Shown here: positions 15,267 to 31,905 of the stretch, one piece after another
Position numbering within the stretch: position 1 is the stretch's first letter
Layout: the number at the start of each line of letters is the position of its first letter
NCBI GenBank assembly: GCA_945869475.1
Contig: CAMBOV010000006.1
Coordinates: 62,001-126,000 of the forward strand
Source of the DNA: Singulisphaera sp. GP187
Lineage (GTDB): Bacteria > Planctomycetota > Phycisphaerae > Phycisphaerales > SM1A02
Direction: 5' to 3'
DNA length: 64,000 nt
Position numbers and translations under genes: made by a program
Notes under the pieces: model-generated
Databases searched by the model: none
What the model saw: the letters and a program-made list of their open reading frames with translations, nothing else
What the model was told of the DNA's origin: nothing

Positions 15267-15387
15267 GGGCTTCGATCTCACCTACAGGCGGAGTTGACGG
15301 CGGGCATTGCTCTTGAGGGGCGGATTCTCTCGCCTCTGGAGGCATTTTCAGAGAAGTTCGTTGTCCTGCGAGGACGCCAATCAGACA

Positions 15388-16506
15388 ATGTGGCTGATGT
15401 CCACCTCACCGCTTCGGCTTTCCTCGCTCGGCGTCACCGCTGGCTCGCTCGCCGCGCTCGTCGCCGTCTTCATGCTCACCTCGAGCGCGTCGGCGCAGTG
15501 GCAGCAGTCCACGGGAACGGCTGCGCTCAACTTTCAGTCACTGATCTCGCGTGGACCAACGGTCTTCGCGGGCGGCGCAACGGGCGCGTACCGATCAGAA
15601 AACAACGCGACCAGTTTTACATTTTCAAACTCGGGCAATAGCGCGGTTGGACCAACACGCGGCTTCGCATCTGAGGACACATACATTTACACATGCACGA
15701 GTCAGGGTGTCTTTCGAAGTGCCAACAATGGCGTCAATTGGATTCTAAAGAGCACCGGGCTCACCAGCCTGCTCAGCCATGGGATACTCCAAGTGCAATC
15801 GAAGCTCTTTCTCGTTGGACCGACTGGTGCTTTTCGGTCAGACAATCAGGGCGACAGTTGGACCGCTGCTGGGATGGCGGGAATCGATACGCGCTGCATT
15901 ACTGCGATCGATTCGACCCTCTTCGTCGGCACCAACGGCACCGGCGTCTACAAGAGCACGAACTGGGGAGCCAGCTGGACCGCGATCAATACCGGTCTCG
16001 CGTCAACGAACATACGTGCGATCGAAGCCAAAGGAACGACACTCTTTGCGGGCGGACAGATCGGAACGGGGGTCTATCGCTCGACCGATCTCGGCGCGAA
16101 CTGGACTCTCCTTGCGGGCGGACTCGCAACGGGTTCTTATCGCGGCTTCGCGCATGACGATCGATTGATCGTCGCGGGATCATTCGGCGACGGTGTGTTT
16201 TACTCGGTCGACAACGGCGGCAAGTGGACGCAGATCAATGGCGGTCTCACCGACCTGACGATCTTCGATCTTGAGATTCACCAGGGATACATCGTCGCAG
16301 CGACGAACACCAACGGAGTCTTTCGTTACGCGATCTCGAACACGATCGATCTCACGGGCGATCTCTGCGTCGATGGATCCGATCTCGCTGCGTTCTTGAG
16401 CGCATGGGGAACCTGCACAGATTGCGCCGCTGATTACAACGGCGACGACCAGGTTGATGGCAGCGATTTCGGTTTGCTGCTCTCGAATTGGGGCTTGTGC
16501 GGGTGA
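15388..16506 (+). CDS. exported BNR/Ycf48-like propeller protein with dockerin-like tail
   Basis: 372 residues from the ATG at 15388; the ATG at 15397 is the alternative. A signal peptide (about 10-36, ending SASA) precedes 6-7 repeats of the type VYRSTDLGANWT / GVYKSTNWGASWT / FYSVDNGGKWT, the Asp-box pattern of BNR/sialidase-like and Ycf48-like propellers. The C-terminus holds two calcium-loop repeats (DLCVDGSDLAAFLSAWGTC and DYNGDDQVDGSDFGLLLSNW), the dockerin-like pairs common in Phycisphaerae. No sialidase catalytic residues can be placed. It is probably a surface or periplasmic protein of unknown ligand. It stands alone, between the remnant pair and guaD. Confidence 0.82.
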   Translation: MWLMSTSPLRLSSLGVTAGSLAALVAVFMLTSSASAQWQQSTGTAALNFQSLISRGPTVFAGGATGAYRSENNATSFTFSNSGNSAVGPTRGFASEDTYIYTCTSQGVFRSANNGVNWILKSTGLTSLLSHGILQVQSKLFLVGPTGAFRSDNQGDSWTAAGMAGIDTRCITAIDSTLFVGTNGTGVYKSTNWGASWTAINTGLASTNIRAIEAKGTTLFAGGQIGTGVYRSTDLGANWTLLAGGLATGSYRGFAHDDRLIVAGSFGDGVFYSVDNGGKWTQINGGLTDLTIFDLEIHQGYIVAATNTNGVFRYAISNTIDLTGDLCVDGSDLAAFLSAWGTCTDCAADYNGDDQVDGSDFGLLLSNWGLCG

Positions 16507-16561
16507 CAGGTGACTAGCATCGCGCGCACCATTGGCGCCGCCGTCGCTCGTGACTGCCTTT

Positions 16562-17053
16562 ATGAACCACGACTCTCGCGAATCTCAGCACGACCGTTTC
16601 ATGCGCCGGGCGATCGCACTTTCGATTGAAAGTGCGGTGACGCAGCGGGGGGGTCCATTCGGTGCAGTGATTGTGAAGGATGGCGCCATCATTGGCGAGG
16701 GAGTTAATTGTGTCACGGCGTGGAACGATCCAACAGCTCATGCAGAAGTCGTCGCCATTCGTGCGGCGTGCAAACAGGTGAGTTCGTTCGATCTTTCAGG
16801 TGCGAAGATCTACACGAGTTGCGAGCCCTGTCCGATGTGCCACGCGGCGATTTATTGGGCGCGGCTTGGAGCGATCTACTACGCCAACACGACGGGCGAT
16901 GCAGCGGCGATTGAGTTCGATGACGCGCGCATCACTCACGAGCTTGGGGCGCCGCCAGAGTCGCGAGCGATTTCGATGACGCAACTTTTGCGAGACGAGG
17001 CACAGATCGCATTCGTCGCGTGGACGAAGCAGCCCAACAAGATTCAGTACTGA
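16562..17053 (+). CDS. guaD: guanine deaminase (nucleoside/cytidine deaminase fold)
   Basis: 163 residues from the ATG at 16562. The zinc motifs are intact: HAE (His60-Ala-Glu62), where Glu is the proton shuttle, and PCPMC (Cys90, Cys93). The C-terminal region KIYTSCEPCPMCHAAIYWAR and the following FDDARITHELG match the GuaD/TadA-like guanine deaminase group rather than cytidine deaminase, since a dimer tail with SMTQLLRDEA follows. It converts guanine to xanthine, the substrate of the XDH encoded 6 kb downstream. It is convergent with uricase and placed at the edge of the purine locus. Confidence 0.85.
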   Translation: MNHDSRESQHDRFMRRAIALSIESAVTQRGGPFGAVIVKDGAIIGEGVNCVTAWNDPTAHAEVVAIRAACKQVSSFDLSGAKIYTSCEPCPMCHAAIYWARLGAIYYANTTGDAAAIEFDDARITHELGAPPESRAISMTQLLRDEAQIAFVAWTKQPNKIQY

Positions 17054-17084: not shown

Positions 17085-17996
17085 TCACCACGAGGGCCAC
17101 TCGCCCGCGACCGGTGGAGCATCGTCACGTTGGATGACCGCCTCGATCAATCCATAGGGCCGGTCGGCGGCGATGTAGACCTCGCTGCGATTCTCGCGCA
17201 AGAAGGGCGAGAGGTCGACGAGAAAGTGATGTTTGTTGGGAAGCGAGAGGCGAATCGCCGCGATCGCGCGCTCTTGCGCGAGCACGCGTTCGCCCATGAG
17301 GTAGAGCGTCTGCTGCAGCGAGAGTGAGTGGTGCTCGGCGAAGGCCGTGAGCATCGTGTCGAGTGCGCGGTCGAACTGCGATCCCCAATCGTTGGCGTCA
17401 AGCCGCGCGCCGTCGGTGGACTCGATGCGCCAGCGCGCCGAAACTTCAGTCGCCATGACGCGGTCTGTCGCATCGGCAAGTGTCGTGTGCTTGTCGCGCA
17501 GGAATCCAGAAAATTCGCTGTCGCTCGTCTTGAGAACCACCAAGTCTTCGAGGCCGCTCACCACAAACTCATGCGTGGATGCTCCAGCGCGAGTGACACG
17601 TGCGGATGCCGTACGTCTCATCGATCCATTGCGTCGAAATGCGCGCGGGCTCGGTGTGCTTGCGCAGATGATTCGCTCCCAGTCGAACTTCTCGATACGA
17701 ACTTCAGCGGCGCAGAGATGCGTATGCGAGGTGAGAAAGTGGCGGCCAACGCGCAGCGCGAATGCTTCGGGTTGGAGCGCGCCGAATTCGTGCGAAAGGG
17801 CGAAGACCGTGTTCTTCATCGTGTCCGTCGGCACGACGTTGCTGTTGTCGCCAGTGAGATGCGTCGCGGCGAATTCACCGCTGAGTTGCACTGTGACGTT
17901 AAGGTCGAGAATCTCGTGCGTGTTTCCAGTGCGCGTGATGCGAACGACTCGGTTCTCAGCTTTTCCGTAACGATTCACCCCCAAGACGATCGCCAT
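17085..17996 (-). CDS. uaZ: urate oxidase (uricase)
   Basis: 303 residues, the usual uricase size, with two T-fold halves. The catalytic pair is Lys11 (NRYGKAENRVV) and Thr57 (NVVPTDTMKNTVF). The end of the protein reads NRSEVYIAADRPYGLIEAVI, close to the family ending with a conserved YGxIxA-type motif. The enzyme oxidises urate with O2 to 5-hydroxyisourate and H2O2 without a cofactor. Its ATG overlaps the hiuH stop (TAATG), so the two are translationally coupled and the product of uricase goes to HIU hydrolase. The unit is divergent from the fusion gene. The C-terminus does not show a peroxisomal-type signal, as expected in bacteria. Confidence 0.95.
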   Translation of the reverse strand: MAIVLGVNRYGKAENRVVRITRTGNTHEILDLNVTVQLSGEFAATHLTGDNSNVVPTDTMKNTVFALSHEFGALQPEAFALRVGRHFLTSHTHLCAAEVRIEKFDWERIICASTPSPRAFRRNGSMRRTASARVTRAGASTHEFVVSGLEDLVVLKTSDSEFSGFLRDKHTTLADATDRVMATEVSARWRIESTDGARLDANDWGSQFDRALDTMLTAFAEHHSLSLQQTLYLMGERVLAQERAIAAIRLSLPNKHHFLVDLSPFLRENRSEVYIAADRPYGLIEAVIQRDDAPPVAGEWPSW

Positions 17997-18349
17997 TAGG
18001 CGCTTCCTCGATAGGTCGTATATCCAAAGGGACTCAGCAGCAGAGGAACATGATGGTGCCGAGGCATGCCATCGACTCGAAAGACAATCGTCACCTCAGG
18101 AAAGAAACACTCGACGCCATGCTGCGCGAACCAGGCTGCCGTGTCGAAGATGAATCGGTAGTCGCCTGCAACCAGTGCACCCGTCGAGAATCCGTGCGCC
18201 CGTCCGCTGGTGCTCGTTCGTGCCTCGTGGCGATCGACCCATGCGCCGGCTTCGAGTGATTGAAACCGCACGAGCATTCCATCGACCGGATGGCCACTTG
18301 AAGTATCGAGAACGTGGGTCGAAAGTCCAGTGGTTGCGGTCGCCGTCAC
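17996..18349 (-). CDS. hiuH: 5-hydroxyisourate hydrolase (transthyretin-like)
   Basis: 117 residues from a GTG start. The N-terminal LSTHVLDTSSGHPVDGM and the C-terminal TYRGSA are the signatures of this family: His in LSTHVLD, Arg in the second strand region and the terminal YRGS form the active site. HHHVPLLLSPFGY gives the third conserved strand. It converts 5-hydroxyisourate into OHCU, the substrate of the UraD domain encoded divergently at 18448. The stop overlaps the uricase ATG. The start has no strong ribosome site. Confidence 0.95.
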   Translation of the reverse strand: MTATATTGLSTHVLDTSSGHPVDGMLVRFQSLEAGAWVDRHEARTSTSGRAHGFSTGALVAGDYRFIFDTAAWFAQHGVECFFPEVTIVFRVDGMPRHHHVPLLLSPFGYTTYRGSA

Positions 18350-18447
18350 ACCGCGAGGCTAAATCGAATTGGTGCGCGGGTCAACGCTTCGACGCCGCCG
18401 TTGCGGGTCAACGCTTCGACGCCGCGGCGCAGAGGTATCGTGGTGGG
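18350..18447. promoter_or_regulatory. divergent promoter region between hiuH and the fusion gene
   Basis: 98 bases separate the GTG of hiuH (minus) from the ATG of the fusion gene (plus). It holds a two-copy direct repeat (next entry). With both promoters this close, one regulator could control both arms of the locus. No regulator gene lies next to it. Confidence 0.5.
18376..18425. repeat. 23-bp direct repeat, 27-bp period, in the divergent promoter
   Basis: GCGGGTCAACGCTTCGACGC continues with CGC at 18376-18398 and recurs identically at 18403-18425, a spacing of 27 bp (about 2.6 helical turns). Perfect repeats of this length in a short intergenic region suggest a tandem operator or a recent local duplication. 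Confidence 0.7.
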
Positions 18448-21400
18448 ATGAGTGGTCGCGGAGTCGTGAATGACGCAGGGAGTCCCTCATACCACGACTT
18501 CATTTCGGATGAACTCTTTCGAAACATTGAGCGGGACCTCGTGCCGGTCGATGGGGTCGCAGATCTCTGGCAGCTTGGCGCAGTGGGGGGGCTTGAAACC
18601 CCTGAATCGCTGCGGTTTCTCTGTGAACTATACGAGGCCGTGAAGGCACCGCTCGATGCACTGCTGCGAGCGCGCGTCGCCGACCGCGCGTTCATCGATG
18701 AACGCACGCGCGCGTGTTGCGAACTGAATCGGTCGCTTCGGGTGCCATTCGGTGACGCGCACTATCGCACCGTGATCGGTCAAGAAGATGGTCGTGGGCG
18801 AGTCGTGATCGGACCGCGCGCCGCGAACTACGACCGCGCCGGCGGACGGGCGGTTGCGCCGATTCCGGCATTTCTACAAGGCAGTCATGTCACTCTCTTT
18901 GGACCCCCCGACGACGCAAAACTTTCGATCAACGCGATGAACGCTTTTCACCGCTCGATCAAGGATGAGCCGGCGATCGTCGCTGAGCTGCTGCGAGATT
19001 TTCGCGGATCCGTGAAGTGGGGAGCCGACGATGAAGATTCCAAGACGCCCCTGCGCGAAGATTTGGTCGTAGCTGGGGAACACCTGACGGCGTGCATGGA
19101 GGGGACGCTTTCGTACATCGATGCCCGCACTGGCAAACACTACGCATTGGCATCGACGAATCGTGCACTGCCAATCAAGCGTCTTCCGGGGCTCGCGCTG
19201 CCGTGCATATTTCTCTACCTGCGGGGCACGCCGCTTGCGTTGCACCTCTACGACTTTGCGCTGCACCTCTTTACGAATTGGCAGAATCCAGAGGCGCTAG
19301 TTTTCTATCTGCCGAAGCTCGAGAACGAAGAAGAGGCCGCGTACGTGCGACTCATGATCGAACGGGCAGAGCAGCTGATCTCTGCGATCCATCCGACGTA
19401 TCAGCTCGGCACGATTCGAGTGATGATCGTTCTTGAAAATCCACGCGCACTCTTTCGAGTGCACGAGATAATGGACGCACTGCATCCGTACTTCGCTGGG
19501 GCATCCCTTGGATGGCATGACTTTCTCGCATCGACCGCGCGAGTCATGAAGCACGAGAGTCACTACCGCATCCCGGTGAAGTCTGATCCAAACATCGTCA
19601 TCAAACACATCAAGGCTTCACACGATCTACTCGCCGAGGTTGTCGGATCGCGCGGCGGAATCAAAGTCGGCGGCATGTACGGGGTCTTGCCAACTGAGGC
19701 AGCGATCGAAAGCGCATCCTTTCAAGTCGCCATCAAAGGATTCATCAAAGACGTCATCGCGCAAATGAAGCGCAATCTCGATGGATTCTGGGTTGCGCAT
19801 CCCGACTTCGTTCGCATCGGGGTTGCGCTCGTCGAAGGATGGAAGCGCTCGGTGGCCGGCGACTCTGCGCCGCTCGACGCGCTCGTGCGTGCGCTGTTGA
19901 ATCCGAACCAGCACGATGAGGTGTTGGCGTTCATTCACTCTGCTGATGTGCGCGGGCTCGATCGAGCCGATCCGAGGTATCCGCGCGCACTGCTCGTCGC
20001 CGATGGACGCACGACGAGCGCGCTCGCGAACAATGACCCGCAAGAGATTCGATACAACATCTTTCAGTCGTTGCAGTACCTGACGGACTGGCTCTGCGGC
20101 AATGGCTGCGTGGCGCTTCCCGCATCGATCGATGGAGTCGCAGTGCGAATCATGGATGACCTTGCGACTGCCGAGCGATCGCGCTGGGAGGTCTGGCACG
20201 AGTTGCATCACGGGAGGTTTTCGTACGAGGATTTCGTGCGCCTCATGCACGAGGAGATGCATTTCATTCGGCACGGTTGCGGGGAGGAGCGAAAGAGCGT
20301 CGAGGTCACATGGAACGATCGAACGCGCAAGTGGTATCCCGTTGCGATGAATCTGCTGTTGCAGCTGATGGCAGACGAAGAGCCAGTCGAGTTTGCGACT
20401 GAATTGCTCCTTCCGTTCACGCTTGAACGCATCCGTAGCGCGGATGATCCGTGGGCCGCCGCGCAGAGACTCGACGCTAAGAAGTTCTTGATTCCACCGA
20501 CGGTCGCGCGATTGAATTCGTTCTTCAGCGCGTGTGGATGCGCACGCTTCGCGGCGAGCATGGCACACGATGGGGTGACCGATCTGCGCTGTGCTGAGCG
20601 ACTCGTGCGCAGCTTCACTCTCGATGAGGTCAATGAAGCAGCACGTTTTCACGGGGATATCGGTCAGTCTGCGCACACGCTCGATGCGACTGCGGCGCGC
20701 GAACAGGCGCGTGTGCTTGCGGAGAGTGCACCGTCGAGCGCGGCAAGCGCCGATGCGTCAATCGCAAGCGAGTCGCTTGTAGCACTGCGCGTGCTTGCGG
20801 GCGCTTACCAAGCGCGTTTCGGGTTTAAATTCCTGGTCGCGGCGAAGGGGCGATCTGTGCACGAGTTGCTCGAAGTGCTGCGCGCGCGAATCGATCACCC
20901 GCCTGCTGAGGAACTCGAATGTGCGCGCGAGGCGCTCTGGCAGATCACAGAGGGGAGACTGCGGGCAGCACCAGTCGATTCTGTCGCCAGTCAAATCGCA
21001 GCGGCGCGCGAGCGGCACGGCGTGAAGGGTGCGTCGATCGCTGTGATGAGCGGCTTGGGACGCACGCAATCGCTCGAACTCGGCACGCGCGATGCGCTCA
21101 ACCCTGTCACACCGAAAACGCGCTTTGAGATTGCGTCGCTCAGCAAGAGCATCGCCGCTGCGTTCGCGATCGAGTACTTCAGCACGAAGCGAATCGCCCT
21201 GTCGACCTGTGTGAATGCCCTCTTTGCATCCACCCCGTCGTCCTATCGAATTCGCTCGCTCGATACGGGGAATCCGCAGTGGGGAGACCGAGTCACGATC
21301 GCGCACTTGCTCTCGCATCACGCGCTCAACATGCACTACGTCAACGGCGTCTCTGCAAGCGACGTCCGACCGCCGATTCGCGAGTTGCTCGATGGAATCG

Positions 21401-23235
21401 CGCAGTGTGACGACGCACCCGTGGGTGTGATCAGCGAGCCTGGCGCGACCTTTCACTACTCGGGGGGCGGTTTTATGGTGCTGCAGCATCTCATCGAGAG
21501 CCTCGAAAGATCGCCGATCCACATTCTCATAGATGGATTCCTGCGCGGGCTTGGGATGAACGAGACATCCTTCGAGCAGCGGATCGCGCCTGAGCAGGAA
21601 TACGCGAGCGGATTTCTCGACTCGGGCGAGCCGATCGCAGCCGCGCGCAAGTTCTATCCACCACTTGCTGCTGGAGCGACCTCGACAGCAAGGGACGTCG
21701 CGCGATTTCTTACGGCGCTCGCGCACGCGCACCGAGATCTCGCGGGGTGTGGTCCGATTTCACACGAATGCTCGGTGCGAATGGTGCACGGCTCTGACAA
21801 AGGTGCCCTCGAGTTCATGGGCTGCACGATGGGACTTGGCATCTTCATCGCCGAAGCGGGAGCGAATCGGCTCGCGATCCACCAAGGCGCGAATGACGGA
21901 TTTCGCGCGCTTTTCGTGCACTGTTACGCGGGTCCAGACGCGGGAAAGGGATTCATCGTGCTCTGCAACGGTGAAGAATCTGGGATGCTCTTCATCGCAG
22001 AAGTTGCGCACATCTTGCTCAGTCATCTCGACCTGCAGGGAGTCGACTGCACGCGCGTTGTCGCTCGCACGGTCGCTCCCACCGTCGAGTCATTTGCCGC
22101 AGTTGCGCAGGAACATCGAGTCAATACTGGGTTTCGAGAACTCGTCTTCTCGATCTTCGATCCAGATCTTCCTGAAGCCATTGTCACTCGGGGAGAACTC
22201 GATCGACTCTCGCAGTTCAATCTCGCAGTCGGTGCGCGCATCGAGGCAGTTTCAAACCAGCGGTTCGCCCGAGCGGAGAATGTGCTCTCGCCACACCTTC
22301 CACTGTTCGATCCAACGCTCTTCGGTCGGCAAGGAAAGACTATGGATAGCTGGGAGACCGTGCGCCATAATGTGCAAGAGTGCGACTGGCTCGTTTTCGA
22401 ACTCGCCACAGCGTTCGCGATTGATTGCCTTTCAATCTCGACGCAGTTTCACAGTGGGAATCACGCTGAGGAGGTCGCGATTGATGGATGGGATGCGACA
22501 ACTGCACAGTGGCAGAGCCTTGTCGCACGATCGCCACTCGTCGGTCACGCCAATCACCTCTTCGAATGCGCGGCGAGCACGACGATGTTTCGTCGCATCC
22601 GCGTGCGGATCTTTCCAGATGGTGGACTCACCAGACTTGCGCTCTACGGCGCGAACCTTCCAGCGCACGAACGCGAAGAACTCATGTCGCAGCACGGCCA
22701 CGTCTGGCCTCCGGTTGATTCGCAGAGTCGAAAGCCGCTCGCGCCGACGTTCACGGCATCCGATGCAGAGATCGAAGCGAACTTCGCGCGGTGCGCCCTG
22801 GGGGGAGTCGGCGGCGAGATCGACCTTGCGAGCGCGGCCTTTGGAGGTCGCGTGGTCTTCGCATCGAACGAGCACTACTCGGCAGCGGCGAACGTCATCT
22901 CGCCATTCGCCGCGCTCAATATGGCGGACGGACTTGAGTCGGCGCGTAGTCGCCTTGCGCACCACAGTGAAGAGGTCGTGATCGCGCTGGGTCGTGAAGC
23001 GACAATCGCTCGAATCGAGCTTGATTTCAGCCACTTTGTAAACAATAATCCGCGCGAGATTGCGATCGAGGGGCTGAGTGCAGGGCAGTGGATCGCGCTC
23101 GTTGCACGAACCGACGTCAAGGCCTTCGGCGGAAACGCCATCGCATTTTCCAGCGACGCTCGAGCGCTCGTCGAACAGGTTCGCGTGACACTCTTTCCAG
23201 ACGGCGGAGTGAATCGCATTCGGGTCTGGTGCTAG
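18448..23235 (+). CDS. malate synthase / OHCU decarboxylase / serine hydrolase / allantoicase fusion
   Basis: 1595 residues from the ATG at 18448 (the frame is open from 18175, but that part is antisense to hiuH). Domain 1 (about 25-655): malate synthase A type, with Arg239 (NRALPIK), Glu330 (VLENP), Asp358 (GWHDF) and the base Asp571 (MDDLATAERSR), so the known catalytic and Mg residues are present. Domain 2 (about 668-838): UraD, with His735 in FHGDIG (usually HPxIG), Glu752-Gln753 and FGFKFLVAAKGRS. Domain 3 (about 845-1210): class-C beta-lactamase/esterase fold, with Ser897-x-x-Lys900, Tyr1004-Ser-Gly and His1145-Gln-Gly. Domain 4 (about 1255-1595): allantoicase with both repeats, each ending FPDGG-x-x-R. 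The flanking genes supply its substrate. No allantoinase or ureidoglycolate lyase is seen, so domain 3 may fill a gap; that is inference. Confidence 0.93.
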   Translation: MSGRGVVNDAGSPSYHDFISDELFRNIERDLVPVDGVADLWQLGAVGGLETPESLRFLCELYEAVKAPLDALLRARVADRAFIDERTRACCELNRSLRVPFGDAHYRTVIGQEDGRGRVVIGPRAANYDRAGGRAVAPIPAFLQGSHVTLFGPPDDAKLSINAMNAFHRSIKDEPAIVAELLRDFRGSVKWGADDEDSKTPLREDLVVAGEHLTACMEGTLSYIDARTGKHYALASTNRALPIKRLPGLALPCIFLYLRGTPLALHLYDFALHLFTNWQNPEALVFYLPKLENEEEAAYVRLMIERAEQLISAIHPTYQLGTIRVMIVLENPRALFRVHEIMDALHPYFAGASLGWHDFLASTARVMKHESHYRIPVKSDPNIVIKHIKASHDLLAEVVGSRGGIKVGGMYGVLPTEAAIESASFQVAIKGFIKDVIAQMKRNLDGFWVAHPDFVRIGVALVEGWKRSVAGDSAPLDALVRALLNPNQHDEVLAFIHSADVRGLDRADPRYPRALLVADGRTTSALANNDPQEIRYNIFQSLQYLTDWLCGNGCVALPASIDGVAVRIMDDLATAERSRWEVWHELHHGRFSYEDFVRLMHEEMHFIRHGCGEERKSVEVTWNDRTRKWYPVAMNLLLQLMADEEPVEFATELLLPFTLERIRSADDPWAAAQRLDAKKFLIPPTVARLNSFFSACGCARFAASMAHDGVTDLRCAERLVRSFTLDEVNEAARFHGDIGQSAHTLDATAAREQARVLAESAPSSAASADASIASESLVALRVLAGAYQARFGFKFLVAAKGRSVHELLEVLRARIDHPPAEELECAREALWQITEGRLRAAPVDSVASQIAAARERHGVKGASIAVMSGLGRTQSLELGTRDALNPVTPKTRFEIASLSKSIAAAFAIEYFSTKRIALSTCVNALFASTPSSYRIRSLDTGNPQWGDRVTIAHLLSHHALNMHYVNGVSASDVRPPIRELLDGIAQCDDAPVGVISEPGATFHYSGGGFMVLQHLIESLERSPIHILIDGFLRGLGMNETSFEQRIAPEQEYASGFLDSGEPIAAARKFYPPLAAGATSTARDVARFLTALAHAHRDLAGCGPISHECSVRMVHGSDKGALEFMGCTMGLGIFIAEAGANRLAIHQGANDGFRALFVHCYAGPDAGKGFIVLCNGEESGMLFIAEVAHILLSHLDLQGVDCTRVVARTVAPTVESFAAVAQEHRVNTGFRELVFSIFDPDLPEAIVTRGELDRLSQFNLAVGARIEAVSNQRFARAENVLSPHLPLFDPTLFGRQGKTMDSWETVRHNVQECDWLVFELATAFAIDCLSISTQFHSGNHAEEVAIDGWDATTAQWQSLVARSPLVGHANHLFECAASTTMFRRIRVRIFPDGGLTRLALYGANLPAHEREELMSQHGHVWPPVDSQSRKPLAPTFTASDAEIEANFARCALGGVGGEIDLASAAFGGRVVFASNEHYSAAANVISPFAALNMADGLESARSRLAHHSEEVVIALGREATIARIELDFSHFVNNNPREIAIEGLSAGQWIALVARTDVKAFGGNAIAFSSDARALVEQVRVTLFPDGGVNRIRVWC

Positions 23236-23245
23236 GATCGGCACG

Positions 23246-24712
23246 ATGCGTGACTTCGCACTGATCCATCTCAATGGCGTGCGCAGAGAAGTTCGCGGTC
23301 GCGACGCCTTGATGATGGTGGCAGATTGGCTTCGAAGCGAACTGGGGCTCACCGGAACAAAGATCGTCTGCGCTGAAGGAGATTGCGGCGCATGCACCGT
23401 TCTGCGCGCCTTCGTGCGACCGGGGAGCGATCCGACGGCTCCGCTGAACTTCGAGATGATCAACGCGTGCATCATGACCGTTGCGCAGATAGACGGTTCA
23501 CACATCGTCTCAGTCGAGGGGATGCGATGCGGCGACGAACTCTCGCCCGCGCAAGAAGCGATGCGCACCTGCCACGCATCTCAGTGCGGCTATTGCACTC
23601 CAGGATTCGTCATGGCAATAAGTGGGATGGTCGAGCGTCACGCTCAAGCCGATGCGCGAACGGCGGCCAACTATCTCACCGGAAATCTCTGTCGGTGCAC
23701 TGGATATCTGCCGATTCTCGAGGCGGCGGTCGCGGTGCGCGCCACGGAGAAGCATTCGGTTGCGGGCCGATACTCGAACGCGCAACATGTTGCCGACTCG
23801 GTTGCCGCCACATCGCAATCAATGCGCATCGATCACGCAGGTGTGACGCTCGTGGCGCCTGTGTCCGTGCGCGAGGCCGTGACATATGCCGCGCTCACTC
23901 CTGGCACTCGAGTGATCGGCGGCGCGACCGATCTTGGAGTTCAGGTGAACAAGGGATGGTCGCTTCCAAGTGCGCTGATGAGTCTTCACTTGATCGGCGA
24001 ACTCTACGAGTCGAAGATCACGCGTCGCGGAGTCTCAGTGGGCGCACGCGTCTCGCTTGCTGAGGTGCGCCGGATGAGCGAAGGGGTCGCACCTGAGTTC
24101 GCTCGCTTTCTCAATCTCTTCGCGTCACCGCAGATCAAGAATGTCGGGACGCTCGTTGGCAACATCGCGAACGCGTCTCCTATCGGCGACACGCTTCCGT
24201 TTCTTTTGATCGCAGGGGGCGAGGTGCATGTCGCGAGTCGACCAGGGGGCAAGGGCGCGGTGCAGCGACGATCGATCCCAATGACCGAGCTTTTCACCGG
24301 CTACAAGAAACTCGCAGTCGAGCCTGGAGAGATCATCACGCATGTGACGTTCGATCGCACGCAACCAGGCGAGATGCTGCGCCTCTCCAAGGTCTCGAAG
24401 CGAAAAGATCTCGATATTAGCGCGGTGAGTGGTGCGTTTTCGGTCACGATCACCGCACGGGGGCGCGCGTCGGCGCCGATTCTCTCGTCGGCCCGCATTG
24501 CATACGGCGGGATCGCAGCGACGCCGATGCGGATGACCGACGCCGAGGCTGCGCTCTGCGGCGAGTTGACGAGCGAGCGCATCGAGAGAGTCGCGCAAAT
24601 GATCGCGGCGTCGATCGCCCCGATCTCAGATGTCCGTGGCAGTGCGGCGTACCGTCGCGTGATCGCAACCAATCTCTTTCGTCGCTTTGCGGATGAGGTG
24701 CTTTGTGGTTGA
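23246..24712 (+). CDS. xdhA: xanthine dehydrogenase small subunit (2x[2Fe-2S], FAD)
   Basis: 488 residues, 10 bases after the fusion gene. The N-terminal ferredoxin-like domain has Cys42, Cys47 and Cys50 (KIVCAEGDCGACTV) with Cys75; the second cluster domain has Cys114-x-x-Cys117 (CGYC) and Cys149-x-Cys151 (LCRCTGY). From about 195 the FAD domain follows, with VIGGATDLGVQVNKG and GTLVGNIANASPIGD. This is the XdhA arrangement in bacteria with split subunits, which pass electrons from the Mo centre via FeS to FAD and NAD+. It makes urate from hypoxanthine and xanthine together with XdhB. Its 3' end overlaps xdhB. Confidence 0.95.
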   Translation: MRDFALIHLNGVRREVRGRDALMMVADWLRSELGLTGTKIVCAEGDCGACTVLRAFVRPGSDPTAPLNFEMINACIMTVAQIDGSHIVSVEGMRCGDELSPAQEAMRTCHASQCGYCTPGFVMAISGMVERHAQADARTAANYLTGNLCRCTGYLPILEAAVAVRATEKHSVAGRYSNAQHVADSVAATSQSMRIDHAGVTLVAPVSVREAVTYAALTPGTRVIGGATDLGVQVNKGWSLPSALMSLHLIGELYESKITRRGVSVGARVSLAEVRRMSEGVAPEFARFLNLFASPQIKNVGTLVGNIANASPIGDTLPFLLIAGGEVHVASRPGGKGAVQRRSIPMTELFTGYKKLAVEPGEIITHVTFDRTQPGEMLRLSKVSKRKDLDISAVSGAFSVTITARGRASAPILSSARIAYGGIAATPMRMTDAEAALCGELTSERIERVAQMIAASIAPISDVRGSAAYRRVIATNLFRRFADEVLCG

Positions 24713-27191
24713 CGAGTCGAGCGAGCGCGAGGCGCGTGCCGCCATTCTGATTGATTCAGGATCGCCCACCCACGACTCGGCGCGCACGCACGTCACAGGT
24801 GAGTCGGTGTACGTCGACGATCGGCCGATGATTCAGGGAAGTCATGCAGTTCACAGCTCGAGCGGCTTCAAAGGCGAGTTGCACTGCGGACTCATCTATA
24901 GCCCGTACGCACACGCACGCATCGTCGGTCTCGACACGGCTCCAGCGCTGCGAGTCGCCGGTGTTGTCTGCGCGGTGACCGCCGCAGACGTCTCGCACAA
25001 CAGGTGGGGAAGCATCTTTCAAGATCAGCCGATCCTCGCAAGTGACGAAGTGCACTACGTCGGCGAGGTGGTCGCTGTATTGGGGGCAGAGACCAAGGAA
25101 GCATTAAAACTCGGGCTCGCTGCGGTTGTGGTCGCGTGGGAGAAACTGCCAGATATCCGCTCGATCGAAGAGGCTGTCGCGGCCAAGAGTTTCATCGGGT
25201 CCGAGCGAGCGATTTCAGTGGGCGACGTTGAAGCAGCGCTCGCGCGCGCTCCGCACACGCTCGCTGGCACACTCGACATTGGCGGGGCAGATCACTTCTA
25301 TCTCGAGAGTCAGGCGGTCGTCGTCTATCCGGGTGAGGATGGTCAGCTCGAAGTGCACTCGTCGACGCAGCATCCAACCGAGACGCAGCATGTCGTTGCC
25401 GAAGCGTGCGGAGTGCCGTTCTGCGATGTGGTGTGTATCGCCAAGCGACTCGGTGGCGCCTTCGGTGGAAAAGAATCACAGGCAGCGCCGATTGCCGCGT
25501 ACGCCGCGTTGATCGCCAAGCGCAGTGGCCGTGCTGCGCGACTCGTGCTCAGCAAGGACGATGACATGATCATCACCGGCAAGCGCAATCCATTTCGAAT
25601 CAGTTTTCGGTGCGGCTTTGACGCGACAGGCAAGATTCTCGCACTCGACGCAATGTTGCACAGCGATGGAGGGGCCTACGCCGATCTCTCCACTGCCATC
25701 ATGGAGCGCGCACTGCTTCATTGCGACAACGCTTATTCGGTTGCAAATATGCGTGTGCGGGGTCAAGTTTGTCGGACGAACTTTCATCCGCACACTGCTT
25801 TTCGTGGATTCGGCGCTCCCAAGGGAGTCGCGATGATCGAGTCGATCATTGAAGAGATCGCGCGCGTCGTTGGACGTGATGCGCTCGATGTGCGCATGGT
25901 GAACTGCTACGCCGATGGTCAAGATGTGACGCACTATGGTCAGCGCGTTGAAGACAATCATCTGCCCGCGCTCTTTGCGACACTCGCGCAGCGCTGTGAC
26001 TATCGAGAGCGCCGCGAGGGGATTCGGTCGCACAATGCTGCGCATGCTGTCACGCCCAATGGCACTCTTCGCGGCCTCTCACTCACCGCGGTGAAGTTTG
26101 GAATCTCGTTCACAACACGGTTTCTCAATCAAGCCAACGCGCTTGTAAATGTTCACCGCGATGGCACCGTGCAAGTCTCGACGGGTGCCGTCGAGATGGG
26201 GCAGGGAGTGAACGCGCGTATCGCAACGATCGTTGCCGACGCATTTGGTGTCGCGTTGCCATGCGTGCGCATCATGCCGACCTCGACCGAGAAAAACGCG
26301 AATACCTCGCCGACCGCGGCATCAACTGGCACCGACATCAACGGCAGCGCGGCACTGAAGGCGTGCGAGCGCATCTGTGGACGCCTCGCGGCGCTTGCGA
26401 TCGCGTTGCGATCGATCCCACCTGAGTTGTGGGCGTCGAAAACCGCCGGACTCGGCACGATGCCAGAGATCAGTGTTGGCGACGGAGCAACCCAGCACGG
26501 CACAGACGAACAGCGCGTCGCATTCGCCGACGGCCACGTCACCGTGACCGATCGATCAGGTACACGCTTCTCGATTGGCTTTGCTGAGTTGGTTCGAGAG
26601 GCCTACCGGAATCGAATCTCGCTCAGTGACTATGGCCATTACGTGACTCCGACGCTCGGATATGACAAAGTGAAGGGCAAGGGCAGGGCGTTTCTCTACT
26701 TCACTCAGGGCGTCGCCGCGAGCGAAGTTGAAATTGATGCACTCACGGGTGAAGTGAAGGTGCGTCGCGTCGACATCCTCATGGACCTCGGGCGGCCGGT
26801 GAATCACGCGCTCGACCGCGGGCAGGTGATGGGTGGATTCATCCAGGCAATGGGATGGGTCACCACTGAGCATCTTGTCTACGACGACAATGGCAAGTTG
26901 ACCTCGCACTCGCCGAGCACCTACAAGATTCCAAGTGTGCACGACACTCCGCGCATTTTCAACGTCGAAATGATTGAGAACGAGCACAACACCACCAACA
27001 TCCGAGGGTCGAAGTCGTCGGGTGAACCGCCACTGCTCTTGGCCCTCTCGGTGTGGACGGCGATTCGCGATGCGATCAGCGCAGTGCGTGGTGATGCAGG
27101 TGTGAGTCTTGCGATTCCAGCGACATCGGAGCGGGTTCTGCGCGCGTTGACTCCCAAAGCATTCGCGGCGTGTGAGGGTCTCTCGCGATGA
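24693..27191 (+). CDS. xdhB: xanthine dehydrogenase large subunit (Mo cofactor)
   Basis: 832 residues from the ATG at 24693; a GTG at 24705 within the overlap with xdhA is an alternative, and the TTG at 24687 is less likely. The molybdopterin domains show FGGKESQAAPIAAYAA, FRGFGAPKGVAMIE, GAVEMGQGVNARIA, TSTEKNANTSPTAAS and, near the C-terminus, SKSSGEPPLLLALSV with the catalytic Glu in the GEPP motif. The enzyme hydroxylates hypoxanthine and xanthine. Overlaps with xdhA and xdhC (ATGA) show a tight operon. Length and motif order are normal for XdhB. Confidence 0.95.
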   Translation: MRCFVVDESSEREARAAILIDSGSPTHDSARTHVTGESVYVDDRPMIQGSHAVHSSSGFKGELHCGLIYSPYAHARIVGLDTAPALRVAGVVCAVTAADVSHNRWGSIFQDQPILASDEVHYVGEVVAVLGAETKEALKLGLAAVVVAWEKLPDIRSIEEAVAAKSFIGSERAISVGDVEAALARAPHTLAGTLDIGGADHFYLESQAVVVYPGEDGQLEVHSSTQHPTETQHVVAEACGVPFCDVVCIAKRLGGAFGGKESQAAPIAAYAALIAKRSGRAARLVLSKDDDMIITGKRNPFRISFRCGFDATGKILALDAMLHSDGGAYADLSTAIMERALLHCDNAYSVANMRVRGQVCRTNFHPHTAFRGFGAPKGVAMIESIIEEIARVVGRDALDVRMVNCYADGQDVTHYGQRVEDNHLPALFATLAQRCDYRERREGIRSHNAAHAVTPNGTLRGLSLTAVKFGISFTTRFLNQANALVNVHRDGTVQVSTGAVEMGQGVNARIATIVADAFGVALPCVRIMPTSTEKNANTSPTAASTGTDINGSAALKACERICGRLAALAIALRSIPPELWASKTAGLGTMPEISVGDGATQHGTDEQRVAFADGHVTVTDRSGTRFSIGFAELVREAYRNRISLSDYGHYVTPTLGYDKVKGKGRAFLYFTQGVAASEVEIDALTGEVKVRRVDILMDLGRPVNHALDRGQVMGGFIQAMGWVTTEHLVYDDNGKLTSHSPSTYKIPSVHDTPRIFNVEMIENEHNTTNIRGSKSSGEPPLLLALSVWTAIRDAISAVRGDAGVSLAIPATSERVLRALTPKAFAACEGLSR

Positions 27192-28009
27192 GCTGTTCGA
27201 TGCACGACTACCTGCAACACGCGAACGATCTTGCTCAGCGCGGCACTGTGTTCGTCACGGTCACCCTCGTCGAGCCTGAGGGACACGTTCCACAAGACAT
27301 CGGTGCGAAGGCGATCGTGACCGAGCGAGGGCTCTCGTGGGGAACAGTCGGCGGAGGTCGACTCGAAGCGCGTGCGATTCTCCACGCGCAAGAAATGATC
27401 ACCCGCGCGAGTGCCGTCGTGCGAACAGCGGGTGTGATCCAACCAGAACTCGTGCGATACGAGTTGCTTCGCGATCTCAACATGGTGTGCGGTGGCGCAG
27501 CGACCTTGTTCTACGAACTCTCCTCGCGACCGAGTTGGAAGATTGCACTCTTCGGCGCAGGACACGTCGCGCAAGCAACGATCTCATTGCTCTGCACTTT
27601 TTCGTGCACACTGACCTGCGTCGACTCGCGCAGTGAGTGGCTGAGTCGAGTTGTCGATCGCGCGAATGTCATCAAAGTGTTGGCGGCGAGTCCACCCGAG
27701 ATCGTTGCGAACTTCGAACCGAGCACCTTCTATCTCTGCATCTCGCAAGGGCACGCAACCGATCTGCCAATCGTGCGGGAGATTCTTCGGCGAGGCGACG
27801 CGGCCTTCATCGGAGTCATCGGCAGCGAGGCGAAGTCACGCACCCTTCGAAGCACCTTGTTGAAGGACGGATTCGCAGAGGCGCACGTCGCAGCAATTCA
27901 CTGCCCACTTGGGCTGCCAATGGGATCAAACGCCCCCGCCGAGATCGCCGTCAGCATCGCGGCACAACTCTTGCAAGAGCGCGATCGCGTGCGGGTGAGT
28001 GGAGTATGA
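27188..28009 (+). CDS. xdhC: xanthine dehydrogenase accessory protein XdhC
   Basis: 273 residues, ATGA overlap with xdhB. XdhC binds and delivers the sulfurated Mo cofactor to XDH. The N-terminal domain contains the GTVGGGRLEARAI motif and a Cys in NMVCGGAATLFYE; the C-terminal Rossmann half starts at about 115 with IALFGAGHVAQA and has FIGVIGSEAKSRTLR and the conserved end IHCPLGLPMGSNAPAEIAVSI. All these are typical. Its presence supports that XdhA/B is an active Mo enzyme. The stop overlaps the start of fdhD (ATGA). Confidence 0.93.
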   Translation: MSCSMHDYLQHANDLAQRGTVFVTVTLVEPEGHVPQDIGAKAIVTERGLSWGTVGGGRLEARAILHAQEMITRASAVVRTAGVIQPELVRYELLRDLNMVCGGAATLFYELSSRPSWKIALFGAGHVAQATISLLCTFSCTLTCVDSRSEWLSRVVDRANVIKVLAASPPEIVANFEPSTFYLCISQGHATDLPIVREILRRGDAAFIGVIGSEAKSRTLRSTLLKDGFAEAHVAAIHCPLGLPMGSNAPAEIAVSIAAQLLQERDRVRVSGV

Positions 28010-28872
28010 ACGTCGAGCATCGGGATGACCCAGAGACGCTGAGCGTGCAAGCGCAGGTGATTCGCGTGACGCCGACAGCGTCGACGCGGATCGTCGATCA
28101 CCTCGCGATCGAAGAGCCCTTGGAGATTCGCGTCGAGTCTCTCGAAGGTGCGGTGCGGCGCACGAAGAGTCTCGCGATCACGATGCGTACTCCTGGTCAC
28201 GACGAAGAGTTGGCGGCGGGGTTTCTCTTCAGCGAGGGAGTCATTCGCGAAAGTCGTGACATCATCGAGATCGTCGCGTGCGGCGCAGAGCGCGGTGCGC
28301 ACGATGGGCAGAACATCGTCAAGGTGCGCCTCGCTGATCACGCAACGGTCGATTGGCCGAAGCTTGAGCGCCATTTTTATTCGACGTCGAGTTGCGGAGT
28401 CTGCGGAAAGTCATCCCTCGACGCTCTCGACGTACCGGGAATCCGCCCCATCCCCCGCGAGGGGATTCGACTGAGCCGTGAGGCGATCTGTTCGCTCCAA
28501 GAGAAGATGCGCGCCGACCAGTCGGTCTTTCATCAGACTGGTGGACTGCACGCCGCGGCGCTCTTCAGTGATGCGGGAGAGTTGGTCGATGTGCGCGAAG
28601 ATGTCGGCCGTCACAATGCCGTCGACAAGTTGCTCGGCGCGCGATTCACCGCAGGCGAGACTCCACTTTCGAATCGGCTGCTTTTTCTGAGCGGACGCGC
28701 GAGTTTCGAGTTGGTGCAGAAGGCGAGCGTCGCAGGCATTCCGATGGTGGTCGCCGTGGGTGCGCCATCGAGTCTCGCTGTCGAACTCGCCAAACGCTTT
28801 GGCATGACGCTGATCGGATTCGTGCGCGATGAGCGATTCAACATCTATCACGGCGAGTGGCGGGTGCAATGA
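28006..28872 (+). CDS. fdhD: formate dehydrogenase accessory sulfurtransferase FdhD
   Basis: 288 residues from the ATG that overlaps the xdhC stop. The frame is open from 27637, but that part is antisense-like to xdhC and Arg-rich. The motif STSSCGVCGKSS carries the CxxC that relays sulfur from IscS to bis-MGD. Further family motifs: TPGHDEELAAGFLFSEG, QTGGLHAAALF, REDVGRHNAVDKLLG and SGRASFELVQKA. FdhD matures formate-dehydrogenase-like enzymes and here directly precedes a YdeP/FdhF-like enzyme, its likely client. It is co-located with XdhC, the equivalent factor for XDH. Confidence 0.95.
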   Translation: MNVEHRDDPETLSVQAQVIRVTPTASTRIVDHLAIEEPLEIRVESLEGAVRRTKSLAITMRTPGHDEELAAGFLFSEGVIRESRDIIEIVACGAERGAHDGQNIVKVRLADHATVDWPKLERHFYSTSSCGVCGKSSLDALDVPGIRPIPREGIRLSREAICSLQEKMRADQSVFHQTGGLHAAALFSDAGELVDVREDVGRHNAVDKLLGARFTAGETPLSNRLLFLSGRASFELVQKASVAGIPMVVAVGAPSSLAVELAKRFGMTLIGFVRDERFNIYHGEWRVQ

Positions 28873-31184
28873 CACACGAGCCCACTCCAGCGCGCACGCA
28901 AGCCCGTACTCCAGAGTTTCTCAGTCCAGAGGTGCTTGACGCAGACTTGCGCGTCGGTGCGCCAAGCGAGTCGGCGGGAGGTCCACGTGCCGTCCAGGTT
29001 GGACTCACGATGTCGGTGCAGCAGATGGGAGTCGCTCGTGCACTCTCGGCGCTTCGTGATGTGAATCAAACCACCGGATTCGATTGTCCAGGATGCGCGT
29101 GGCCCGATCCAGAAGAGAAGCGATCAGTCGCCGAGTTCTGCGAGAACGGTGCGAAGGCAGTCGCGCACGAGGGAACACTTTCTCGCGCAACCCCCGCGTT
29201 GTTCGCCACTCACTCAGTCGAGGAGTTGTCGCGCAACTCGGATCATTGGCTCGGTCAACAGGGTCGCCTCACAGAGCCGATGTATCTCGCGGCGGGTGAT
29301 TCGCACTATCAGCCAATCACATGGGAGCGCGCCTTCGAACTGCTCGGCAACACCCTCAAAGCGCTCGCATCACCAGACCAAGCAGTCTTCTACACCTCCG
29401 GTCGCACGAGCAACGAGGCAGCGTTTCTCTACCAACTCTTCGTACGTCTCTATGGCACGAACAATCTTCCCGACTGCTCGAACATGTGCCATGAGTCGAG
29501 CGGAGTTGCGATGACAGAGTCGATCGGCACTGGCAAGGGCACCGTCTCGCTCAAAGATTTCGACACTGCAGATTGCATCGTCGTCATCGGACAGAATCCC
29601 GGCACCAACCATCCACGCATGTTGCGCACACTGCAAGAGGCGGCGCGGCGAGGGTGCGAGATCATCAGCATCAATCCGCTCGCTGAGACAGGGTTGAAGC
29701 GGTTTCGCCATCCACAAGAATTCAGTGGCATCTTTGGCAGCGGCACGCCATTGATGACGCACCACCTGCCGGTCAAGATCAACGGAGATGTCGCGCTTCT
29801 CAAGGGTATTCAGAAAGCGATGCTCGAGAATGCATCGACGCGCATCGACCATGAGTTCATCGCCCGATACACCGAGGGCTTCGACGCCTTTCGCGCAGAC
29901 TTGCAACAGGAAACCTGGGAGTCCATTGAGACCGCCTCAGGCATTTCGCAGAGTGAGGTACGCGTTGTTGCCGACGTGATCGGTCGCAGCAAGGCGATGA
30001 TCTGCTGCTGGGCGATGGGTCTGACGCAGCACCGAAACGCTGTTGCCAACATTCAAGAGATCATCAATCTGCTGCTGCTGGGAGGTCACTTTGGACGGCC
30101 TGGCGCGGGGGCGTGTCCAGTGCGCGGGCATAGCAACGTGCAAGGCGATCGAACAATGGGAATCTGGGAGCGACCCAGCGCCGAGTTCTTGCGCCGCCTC
30201 GGCAGTGAGTTCGAGTTCACTCCGCCCCACGAGCATGGACACTCAACGGTCGAAGCGATCGAGGCGATGCACGCGGGCACCATCGGCGTCTTCTTCGCGC
30301 TCGGCGGAAATTTCTTGAGCGCCTCGCCAGACACTGCATACACGGCGCTCGCACTCTCGCGCTGCGCGTTGACAGTGCAGGTCTCGACCACGTTGAATCG
30401 TTCACATTTGGTTACCGGCGCACAGGCGTTGATCTTGCCGTGCCTTGGTCGCACCGAACGCGACATGCAAGCGTCCGGCGCGCAGTCTGTCACGGTTGAA
30501 AACTCGATGGGCGTGGTGCACTCTTCGCAGGGGCGACTCGAGGCGGCATCCACGCATCTCATGAGCGAGCCCGCGATTGTCGCGGCCCTCGCACGCGCGA
30601 CACTCGGCGTCGATTGGAGCGGCTACGTCGCGAACTATGACACCATTCGCGATCGAATTGCGCGGGTGATCCCTGGGTTCGAGAATATGAATGAGCGCAT
30701 TCGTGAACCCAACGGATTCGAGTTGCCCCACGCAGTGCGCGACCGACGAGAGTTCCTCACGCCAAGCAAGAAGGCGCAGTTCACGGTGCATGAGATACCG
30801 CGACTTGACGTCGCTGTCGATCAGTTTGTGCTCACCACCATTCGCTCGCACGATCAGTACAACACGACGATTTACGCGCTCGACGATCGATACCGAGGCA
30901 TCCACAAGGGACGCCGCATCGTGCTGATGAACAGTGCAGATATCGCCGCGCGAGGGTTCACAGCGGGTGATGCCGTTGACCTCGTCAGTCACCACCTCGG
31001 CAGGCGGCGCCGTGCGAAAAACTTTCGCCTCGTTGCCTACGAGATTCCGCGCGGCTGCGTGGCGAGTTACTTTCCAGAGACGAATGTCTTGGTCCCTATC
31101 GAGAGCGTTGCAGAGTCGAGTCTGACTCCGACGTCGAAGTCGCTCGTTGTCTCGATCGAACGCGCATCCAATGAGCGAGGGTGA
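28869..31184 (+). CDS. FdhF/YdeP family molybdopterin oxidoreductase
   Basis: 771 residues from the ATG overlapping the fdhD stop (ATGA). It shows the YdeP-type start with GFDCPGCAWPD (two Cys, possible FeS ligands), then LTEPMYL, FYTSGRTSNEAAFLYQLF, DCSNMCHESSGVAM, GQNPGTNHPRML and INPLAETGLKRF, all bis-MGD binding motifs. The C-terminal beta-barrel has the molydop-binding part (YNTTIYALDDRYRGI). The family is called formate dehydrogenase-like, but substrates of most members are unproven; YdeP of E. coli is linked to acid resistance. There is no Sec codon, and the usual active-site Cys/Sec of FdhF is not clear. Last large gene of the chain. Confidence 0.88.
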   Translation: MTHEPTPARTQARTPEFLSPEVLDADLRVGAPSESAGGPRAVQVGLTMSVQQMGVARALSALRDVNQTTGFDCPGCAWPDPEEKRSVAEFCENGAKAVAHEGTLSRATPALFATHSVEELSRNSDHWLGQQGRLTEPMYLAAGDSHYQPITWERAFELLGNTLKALASPDQAVFYTSGRTSNEAAFLYQLFVRLYGTNNLPDCSNMCHESSGVAMTESIGTGKGTVSLKDFDTADCIVVIGQNPGTNHPRMLRTLQEAARRGCEIISINPLAETGLKRFRHPQEFSGIFGSGTPLMTHHLPVKINGDVALLKGIQKAMLENASTRIDHEFIARYTEGFDAFRADLQQETWESIETASGISQSEVRVVADVIGRSKAMICCWAMGLTQHRNAVANIQEIINLLLLGGHFGRPGAGACPVRGHSNVQGDRTMGIWERPSAEFLRRLGSEFEFTPPHEHGHSTVEAIEAMHAGTIGVFFALGGNFLSASPDTAYTALALSRCALTVQVSTTLNRSHLVTGAQALILPCLGRTERDMQASGAQSVTVENSMGVVHSSQGRLEAASTHLMSEPAIVAALARATLGVDWSGYVANYDTIRDRIARVIPGFENMNERIREPNGFELPHAVRDRREFLTPSKKAQFTVHEIPRLDVAVDQFVLTTIRSHDQYNTTIYALDDRYRGIHKGRRIVLMNSADIAARGFTAGDAVDLVSHHLGRRRRAKNFRLVAYEIPRGCVASYFPETNVLVPIESVAESSLTPTSKSLVVSIERASNERG

Positions 31185-31905
31185 ACTTGCCATCCTTGTG
31201 GGACTGATCTGCGCGATGGCCGCGCTCTACGCGAGCGTCGGTCATGGTGGCGCATCGGGATATCTCGCGGTGATGGCGCTCGTTGGGGTGAGCAGCGTTG
31301 TGATGCGACCTTCGGCACTCATTTTGAATGTGCTCGTGGCGACGCTCGCAACGATCGCATTCATGCGCGCGGGGCACCTTCGATGGAATCTGCTCTGGCC
31401 CTTCCTCATCACCTCAATCCCGTGTGCATTTTTCGCCGGTTCGTACGCGGTGAACGAGCCGACATTCAAGCGACTCGTCGCAGCGACACTCTTCATCGCC
31501 GCACTGCGCATGTTTATGCCGCAGCGCGAGACGACCACGCGTGCACTCTCGATTCCGATTGCTGCACTCTGTGGCGCACTCATCGGGGTACTCTCTGGAC
31601 TCGTCGGCGTCGGCGGTGGAATCTTGCTCACGCCGCTCATGATTCTCGCTCGTTGGTCGAGCGCGCGCGAAGCGGCAGCAGTCTCGGCGCCCTTCATTTT
31701 GCTCAATTCACTTGCAGGACTCGCAGGTCTACTCACGGTCGGATTCACCGTCGAGTCGTGGCTCTGGTGGGCCGCCGCAGTGGCGATCATCGGCGGATTC
31801 GCCGGCGCGCGCTGGAGTCTTCAGAGCGCATCTCAACTCTGGTTTCGTCGAGCGCTCGGCGTGGTGCTCTTGATTGCAGCGTTCAAGTTTGTCGTCACGT
31901 CGTGA
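31171..31905 (+). CDS. TauE/SafE family permease
   Basis: 244 residues from the ATG at 31171, overlapping the previous gene by 14 bases. About 7-8 membrane helices; the two halves start with YASVGHGGASGYLAVMAL and LSGLVGVGGGILLTPLMIL, the twin G-x-G-G-G motifs of the TauE/SafE/DUF81 family, which exports or imports sulfite, sulfoacetate or other small anions. With sulfur-dependent cofactor factors and a Mo enzyme upstream, it may move a small anion related to that enzyme; this is a guess. Its 3' end overlaps the convergent gene at 31895 by 11 bases. Confidence 0.85.
   Translation: MSEGELAILVGLICAMAALYASVGHGGASGYLAVMALVGVSSVVMRPSALILNVLVATLATIAFMRAGHLRWNLLWPFLITSIPCAFFAGSYAVNEPTFKRLVAATLFIAALRMFMPQRETTTRALSIPIAALCGALIGVLSGLVGVGGGILLTPLMILARWSSAREAAAVSAPFILLNSLAGLAGLLTVGFTVESWLWWAAAVAIIGGFAGARWSLQSASQLWFRRALGVVLLIAAFKFVVTS

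Follow-up and report, generated by a model that had tools for sequence, protein, structure and literature searches.

A four-domain protein predicted to convert OHCU to malate, with a putative serine-type allantoinase, in planctomycetes and Bdellovibrionota

Enzymes of urate breakdown are known to occur as fusions. In Cryptococcus, allantoicase is joined to ureidoglycolate hydrolase (PMC3646786), and a plant fusion of OHCU decarboxylase with HIU hydrolase is cited in the same paper. The yeast malate synthase DAL7 is encoded in the allantoin cluster, where it disposes of glyoxylate (PMC3646786). In bacteria, an allantoicase-OHCU decarboxylase protein is represented by the NCBIfam model NF010371/PRK13797 (521 positions), in which the allantoicase part precedes the OHCU decarboxylase (UraD) part; standalone UraD matches model positions 351-518. 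Here, we analyzed a 64,000-nucleotide stretch of DNA (the window) that encodes malate synthase, UraD, a serine hydrolase and allantoicase in one chain. This four-domain chain is a new domain architecture, and in the literature within reach of our search, which left out most subscription journals, neither the architecture nor a serine-type allantoinase was described.

One open frame with four enzyme domains

The gene comprises 1595 open codons and a stop codon within a stop-free frame spanning 1693 codons (Table 1). An initial annotation, made without database searches, had read it as a single chain of four enzymes, and Pfam bore this out, with the profiles of all four enzymes matched in the annotated order and over their curated cut-offs: MS_TIM-barrel (residues 246-458, E = 1.6e-19) and MS_C (532-652, E = 1.3e-10) for malate synthase, OHCU_decarbox (701-839, E = 1.7e-18) for UraD, Beta-lactamase PF00144 (849-1180, E = 1e-25) for the hydrolase, and Allantoicase (E = 1.1e-53) at the C terminus, in the two repeats that had been annotated there. 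Sequence matches in the PDB agreed with Pfam (malate synthase A 3cuz, OHCU decarboxylases and yeast allantoicase 1o59/1sg3).

Table 1. Positions of the four-domain gene, its parts and its neighbors in the window
Feature	Position	Strand	Evidence
Guanine/cytidine deaminase family protein	16532..17053	+	PF00383; members of the family lie close to the fusion in 8 loci
Cofactor-independent urate oxidase (uricase)	17085..17996	-	TIGR03383 314.6 bits, over cut-off
HIU hydrolase (5-hydroxyisourate hydrolase, HIUase), divergent to the fusion	17996..18349	-	TIGR02962 110.9 bits, over cut-off
Four-domain fusion gene, 1595 aa (malate synthase - UraD - serine hydrolase - allantoicase)	18448..23235	+	Open frame, Pfam, 71 intact homologous loci
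N-terminal part, residues 1-186	18448..19005	+	No Pfam match; mean pairwise identity 52% among fusions
Malate synthase A-type domain, residues ~187-660 (Arg245, Glu330, Asp358, Asp571)	19006..20427	+	PF01274, PF20659; alignment with E. coli AceB 3cuz; residues 68/68
OHCU decarboxylase (UraD) domain, residues ~690-842 (His735, Glu752)	20515..20973	+	PF09349, TIGR03180; residues 68/68
Serine beta-lactamase-fold hydrolase, residues ~846-1200 (Ser897-x-x-Lys900, Tyr1004, His1145-x-Gly1147); proposed allantoinase	20983..22047	+	PF00144, AlphaFold, Foldseek; motifs 68/68
Allantoicase repeat 1, residues 1261-1405	22228..22662	+	PF03561; yeast allantoicase 1o59/1sg3
Allantoicase repeat 2, residues 1457-1595	22816..23232	+	PF03561, second stretch; 1o59/1sg3
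Xanthine dehydrogenase small subunit XdhA	23246..24712	+	TIGR02963 413.6 bits, under its cut-off of 467
Xanthine dehydrogenase molybdopterin subunit XdhB	24687..27191	+	TIGR02965 833 bits, just under the cut-off of 849.5
XdhC, molybdenum cofactor insertion for xanthine dehydrogenase	27188..28009	+	PF13478, PF02625

We aligned the window protein with 67 others (71 loci with an open frame of at least 1500 aa, minus 4 duplicate records), and the active sites of all four domains were invariant in the resulting 68 rows. The malate synthase domain is of the A class (PF01274 and PF20659 over cut-off; the catalytic Arg245 and Asp571 and the Mg-binding Glu330 and Asp358 in 68 of 68), and its 136.9 bits against TIGR01344, under the equivalog cut-off of 594.5, mark it as a divergent subfamily. 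UraD scored 68.1 bits against PF09349 (cut-off, 24), with the catalytic His735 and Glu752 invariant. The allantoicase domain scored 181.7 bits over two stretches of PF03561 and 195.8 bits against TIGR02961, under the cut-off of 277.9; its D-x-W-E-x-x-R-H and D-G-x-E-x-x-R motifs were present in every row, as were Asp1300, Trp1302, Glu1303, Arg1306, His1307 and Asn1338. In the hydrolase, Ser897, Lys900, Tyr1004, His1145 and Gly1147 were invariant. Most of the key residues named in the initial annotation (Glu330, Asp358, Asp571, His735, Glu752, Ser897, Lys900 and Tyr1004) are thus retained throughout, the exception being Arg239, which is Leu in 52 of the 68 rows. The arginine kept in all 68 is Arg245, which aligns with the residue of E. 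coli malate synthase A that we take to be the catalytic arginine.

AlphaFold predicted a compact and confident fold for residues 662-1595, which cover UraD, the hydrolase and allantoicase (pLDDT 92.9, pTM 0.92), and this model suggests a fixed arrangement of the three domains. The predicted allantoicase (residues 1256-1595, model m89fd949eeeac, a monomer) covered both repeats of yeast allantoicase with a TM of 0.42 of the target and an rmsd of 20, indicating that the predicted repeats are oriented unlike those of the yeast monomer. We infer from the modeled arrangement that the fusion may channel its substrates, and joining the domains could limit the loss of glyoxylate.

The window's own genome yielded no second match to the fusion protein and thus has no other malate synthase of the fusion type, although a distant G-type enzyme could escape this search. 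We rejected the glyoxylate shunt as the role of the malate synthase domain: none of the five fusion genomes searched contained a convincing isocitrate lyase (in four of them a single weak match scored about 50 bits, and the match that was inspected proved PEP-mutase-like), and therefore no shunt role is evident. The domain appears to serve purine-derived glyoxylate, like yeast Dal7 (PMC3646786). The profiles, conserved active sites, gene neighborhood and lack of isocitrate lyase all support the disposal of glyoxylate by malate synthase that had been annotated initially.

Gene neighborhood, distribution and inheritance

In the window, the uricase and HIU hydrolase genes lie just upstream of the fusion and are divergent from it, and xdhABC lies just downstream. 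The order in most Bdellovibrionota loci is PuuD-type urate oxidase (PF06181), HIU hydrolase and fusion, often with adjoining xdhCBA on the opposite strand; uricase/HIUase adjoin the fusion in several planctomycetes, and xdhABC was found near it in about 25 loci. These conserved neighbors indicate that a short cluster encodes the conversion of xanthine to urate, HIU and then OHCU, at which point the fusion takes over. The PF00383 deaminase of the window is probably a guanine deaminase feeding xanthine into this sequence.

The PuuD-type urate oxidase found upstream of the fusion in Bdellovibrionota, whose family occurs near the fusion in 51 loci, has a C-terminal CarboxypepD_reg-like domain in the single representative scanned (L102:7937-9649). 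In one planctomycete subgroup (L084, L085, L086, L106, L138, L153 and L155), the genes flanking HIUase and the fusion include an aspartate-kinase-like one with AA_kinase and ACT domains; neither a uricase nor an xdh family member was present within the flanks examined. A GTATC(G/T)T element just 5' of the ATG is kept in all five genus members (window 18425-18448; L002-L005) and might serve either as a -10 box lying very close to the start codon, as for a leaderless message, or as a regulator site. Directly after xdhC (window 28000-31905) are genes for an FdhD-like protein, a YdeP/FdhF-type molybdopterin oxidoreductase (TIGR01701, 926 bits), which is a second molybdoenzyme in the cluster, and a TauE-type exporter. 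Amid the purine genes (window 15307-16506) is the gene for a protein that looks secreted, with weak BNR/sortilin-like repeats and, at its C terminus, an acidic dockerin-like repeat.

At least 71 loci, belonging to Phycisphaerales-type planctomycetes and to Bdellovibrionota, were retrieved with the same architecture uninterrupted, at identities of 39-69%. Among the Phycisphaerae, the whole protein was free of stops in four other genomes from the genus, where its identity was 50-65%, and the fusion also occurred in one other genus of the same family. The four-domain form, which had been noted for this one genome, is therefore conserved beyond it, with a wider reach that includes another phylum, Bdellovibrionota, in which it is common. 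A scan of one genome per GTDB species, using patterns placed within the malate synthase part of the fusion, returned 80 loci. Apart from genes truncated at a contig end, those retrieved have the complete architecture, such that no member of this malate synthase subfamily was seen without its fusion partners. The distribution was patchy in the genomes sampled, with the fusion in 5/19 genomes of the genus, 3/397 sampled in the class and 2/392 sampled in the phylum.

We considered that an assembly or sequencing error, or a fragmenting pseudogene, might have joined separate genes. The homologues come mostly from metagenome bins, the genomes reached via the loci carry no completeness figure, and three loci have an internal break (one in-frame TAA in L127 and apparent frameshifts in L139 and L157; the remaining short loci stop at contig ends). 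However, the same order recurs in 71 loci, several of them on contigs of 0.3-1.5 Mb, and two of the Bdellovibrionota records are not labeled as MAGs (L134 and L144). Furthermore, dN/dS in five close pairs ranged from about 0.02 to 0.28, both within each domain and where one enzyme joins the next, indicating that these joins, too, are translated and subject to selection; higher values, of up to 0.6, were confined to the linker joining the allantoicase repeats. An artifactual join is scarcely credible against this evidence, and we rejected assembly error on the basis of the conserved intact frames.

Per-domain distances correlated (r of 0.67-0.80), which is what joint inheritance of the domains would produce. 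In an unrooted FastTree phylogeny of the 68 fusion proteins, labeled with bin names that can be unreliable, the planctomycete sequences formed one fully supported group amid Bdellovibrionota. This sequence tree suggests a single transfer of the fusion between predatory-type bacteria and planctomycetes, most simply from Bdellovibrionota.

The hydrolase domain and the step from allantoin to allantoate

The hydrolase is a member of the serine beta-lactamase-like class, with 91.1 bits against PF00144 (cut-off, 27) and the S-x-x-K, Tyr and His-x-Gly motifs in all 68 rows. Its AlphaFold model (pLDDT 94.4) was matched by Foldseek to esterase IS11, SurE, R61 DD-peptidase, D-amino acid amidase, LACTB and class C beta-lactamases, with identities of about 20%. 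It passed no cut-off in NCBIfam and reached 39.4 bits against a class C beta-lactamase cut-off of 415. The fusion protein had no amidohydrolase match in Pfam and the hydrolase fold differs from that of the AllB family, which does not in itself rule out the activity. Given that every catalytic motif is retained in 68 of 68 sequences, the domain very likely functions as an enzyme rather than serving as a spacer. Members of PF00144 are mostly esterases, peptidases and beta-lactamases, and to our knowledge none is an allantoinase. The hydrolase also has relatives in the phylum that stand alone, at about 30% identity; in the 9 loci retrieved with flanks they were located in no purine cluster and thus do not help in assigning its function. 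In the plasmid collection, the malate synthase part alone was matched among the matches listed.

PF00144 is large and promiscuous and the best structural neighbors are esterases and peptidases, so that the hydrolase might be a passenger, with the chance fusion of a common esterase or peptidase that stands outside the pathway. We regard this as very unlikely given that the active site is intact in every full-length homologue, in two phyla and under purifying selection, and that AlphaFold packs the domain between UraD and allantoicase with high confidence.

The hydrolase is placed between UraD, whose product is allantoin, and allantoicase, whose substrate is allantoate, and an allantoinase is therefore needed between the two. 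We rejected a classical enzyme elsewhere in the genome, as neither AllB (TIGR03178) nor PuuE (TIGR03212; best score about 30 bits against 424.6) was over cut-off in any of the 53 fusion-bearing genomes. In a control genome of the same order that lacks the fusion (G348, a single genome), AllB scored 511 bits and lies beside separate allantoicase, uraD, HIUase and uricase genes; the hydrolase thus fills the slot that AllB holds there.

We also considered that the chain could be truly purine catabolic while its hydrolase performs another job in the pathway, such as hydrolysis of ureidoglycolate or of a side product, with allantoin opened elsewhere by a dihydropyrimidinase/hydantoinase or an unrecognized enzyme. 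Dihydropyrimidinase-like proteins are found in many fusion genomes. An AllB-superfamily protein under the cut-off is present in 40 of the 53, where a dihydropyrimidinase could open allantoin, and of the two such proteins in the window genome, one is a dihydropyrimidinase (529.5 bits, over cut-off) and the other a dihydroorotase. Ureidoglycolate lyase (PF04115) was likewise absent from 53 of 53, leaving two steps without an enzyme. However, ureidoglycolate decays spontaneously to glyoxylate and urea (PMC3793230), and the AllB-bearing control genome also lacks PF04115, such that this second gap need not be filled. Against the same reading, 13 of the 53 genomes have no AllB relative at 1e-40, one (G013) retains a single long match that scores as dihydroorotases do, and the position between UraD and allantoicase fits an allantoinase. 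We therefore think it unlikely that the hydrolase acts at another step. The absence of the lyase implies that the ureidoglycolate step is either spontaneous or carried out by allantoicase, whose action on ureidoglycolate is a further possibility.

We infer from the genomic gap and the domain position that the hydrolase is the allantoinase. The initial annotation had proposed a route from OHCU to malate; the four-enzyme chain and its place in urate breakdown stand, as judged from domain profiles, active sites and neighborhood, whereas the route had a gap from allantoin to allantoate and left the hydrolase without a role. In the pathway that we propose, OHCU formed from urate by the neighboring urate oxidase and HIU hydrolase would be converted to malate by a single cytosolic multifunctional enzyme. 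UraD would produce (S)-allantoin, and the hydrolase would open its hydantoin ring through an acyl-enzyme at Ser897 to give allantoate, as beta-lactamases open a lactam. This route is chemically reasonable by analogy, given that the beta-lactamase fold opens cyclic amides and that the allantoin ring is a cyclic imide/amide. The two-repeat allantoicase would then release urea and ureidoglycolate, the latter would break down to glyoxylate and another molecule of urea, by itself or on allantoicase, and malate synthase would join glyoxylate with acetyl-CoA to form malate. The hydrolase would thereby stand in for AllB and PuuE, the metal-dependent allantoinases, without being homologous to them. Genomic context lends good support to the claim of a serine-type allantoinase, and we consider it probable that the protein is a multifunctional OHCU-to-malate chain with such an enzyme as its hydrolase. 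We also favor, a little more cautiously, the broader view that the domain represents a third independent allantoinase class, of penicillin-binding/beta-lactamase fold, within a four-enzyme chain passed between Bdellovibrionota and planctomycetes.

If true, one chain would hold four catabolic steps that follow each other directly or nearly so and lead to a central metabolite, a natural case of a pathway built into one protein around the toxic aldehyde acid glyoxylate. If the hydrolase opens allantoin, it would be a third unrelated class of allantoinase, and genomes now scored as unable to complete urate breakdown could do so. The fusion also points to purines as a source of nitrogen and carbon in Bdellovibrio-like bacteria and aquatic planctomycetes.

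Comparison with known systems

The bacterial protein NF010371/PRK13797 has neither malate synthase nor the hydrolase, and its allantoicase and UraD parts are in the opposite order. The fungal allantoicase-ureidoglycolate hydrolase fusion also joins successive enzymes of urate breakdown, and its authors propose channeling (PMC3646786); it differs by adding ureidoglycolate lyase/hydrolase units, and its allantoinase (DAL1) is a separate, classical enzyme. In the plant OHCU decarboxylase-HIU hydrolase protein, UraD is likewise fused to a pathway neighbor, although the partner acts upstream and there are two domains. The Saccharomyces DAL cluster resembles the fusion in that the DAL7 malate synthase is dedicated to allantoin-derived glyoxylate (PMC3646786), but it consists of separate genes with the classical allantoinase DAL1. 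AllB and PuuE catalyze the reaction that we propose for the hydrolase domain; their folds are of the metal-dependent amidohydrolase or polysaccharide-deacetylase type, whereas the fusion hydrolase is a Ser-Lys-Tyr serine hydrolase. It has its fold and three catalytic motifs in common with the PF00144 hydrolases (class C beta-lactamase, D-amino acid amidase, R61 DD-peptidase and esterase IS11), from which it is set apart by an identity of about 20% and by being embedded in a multienzyme.
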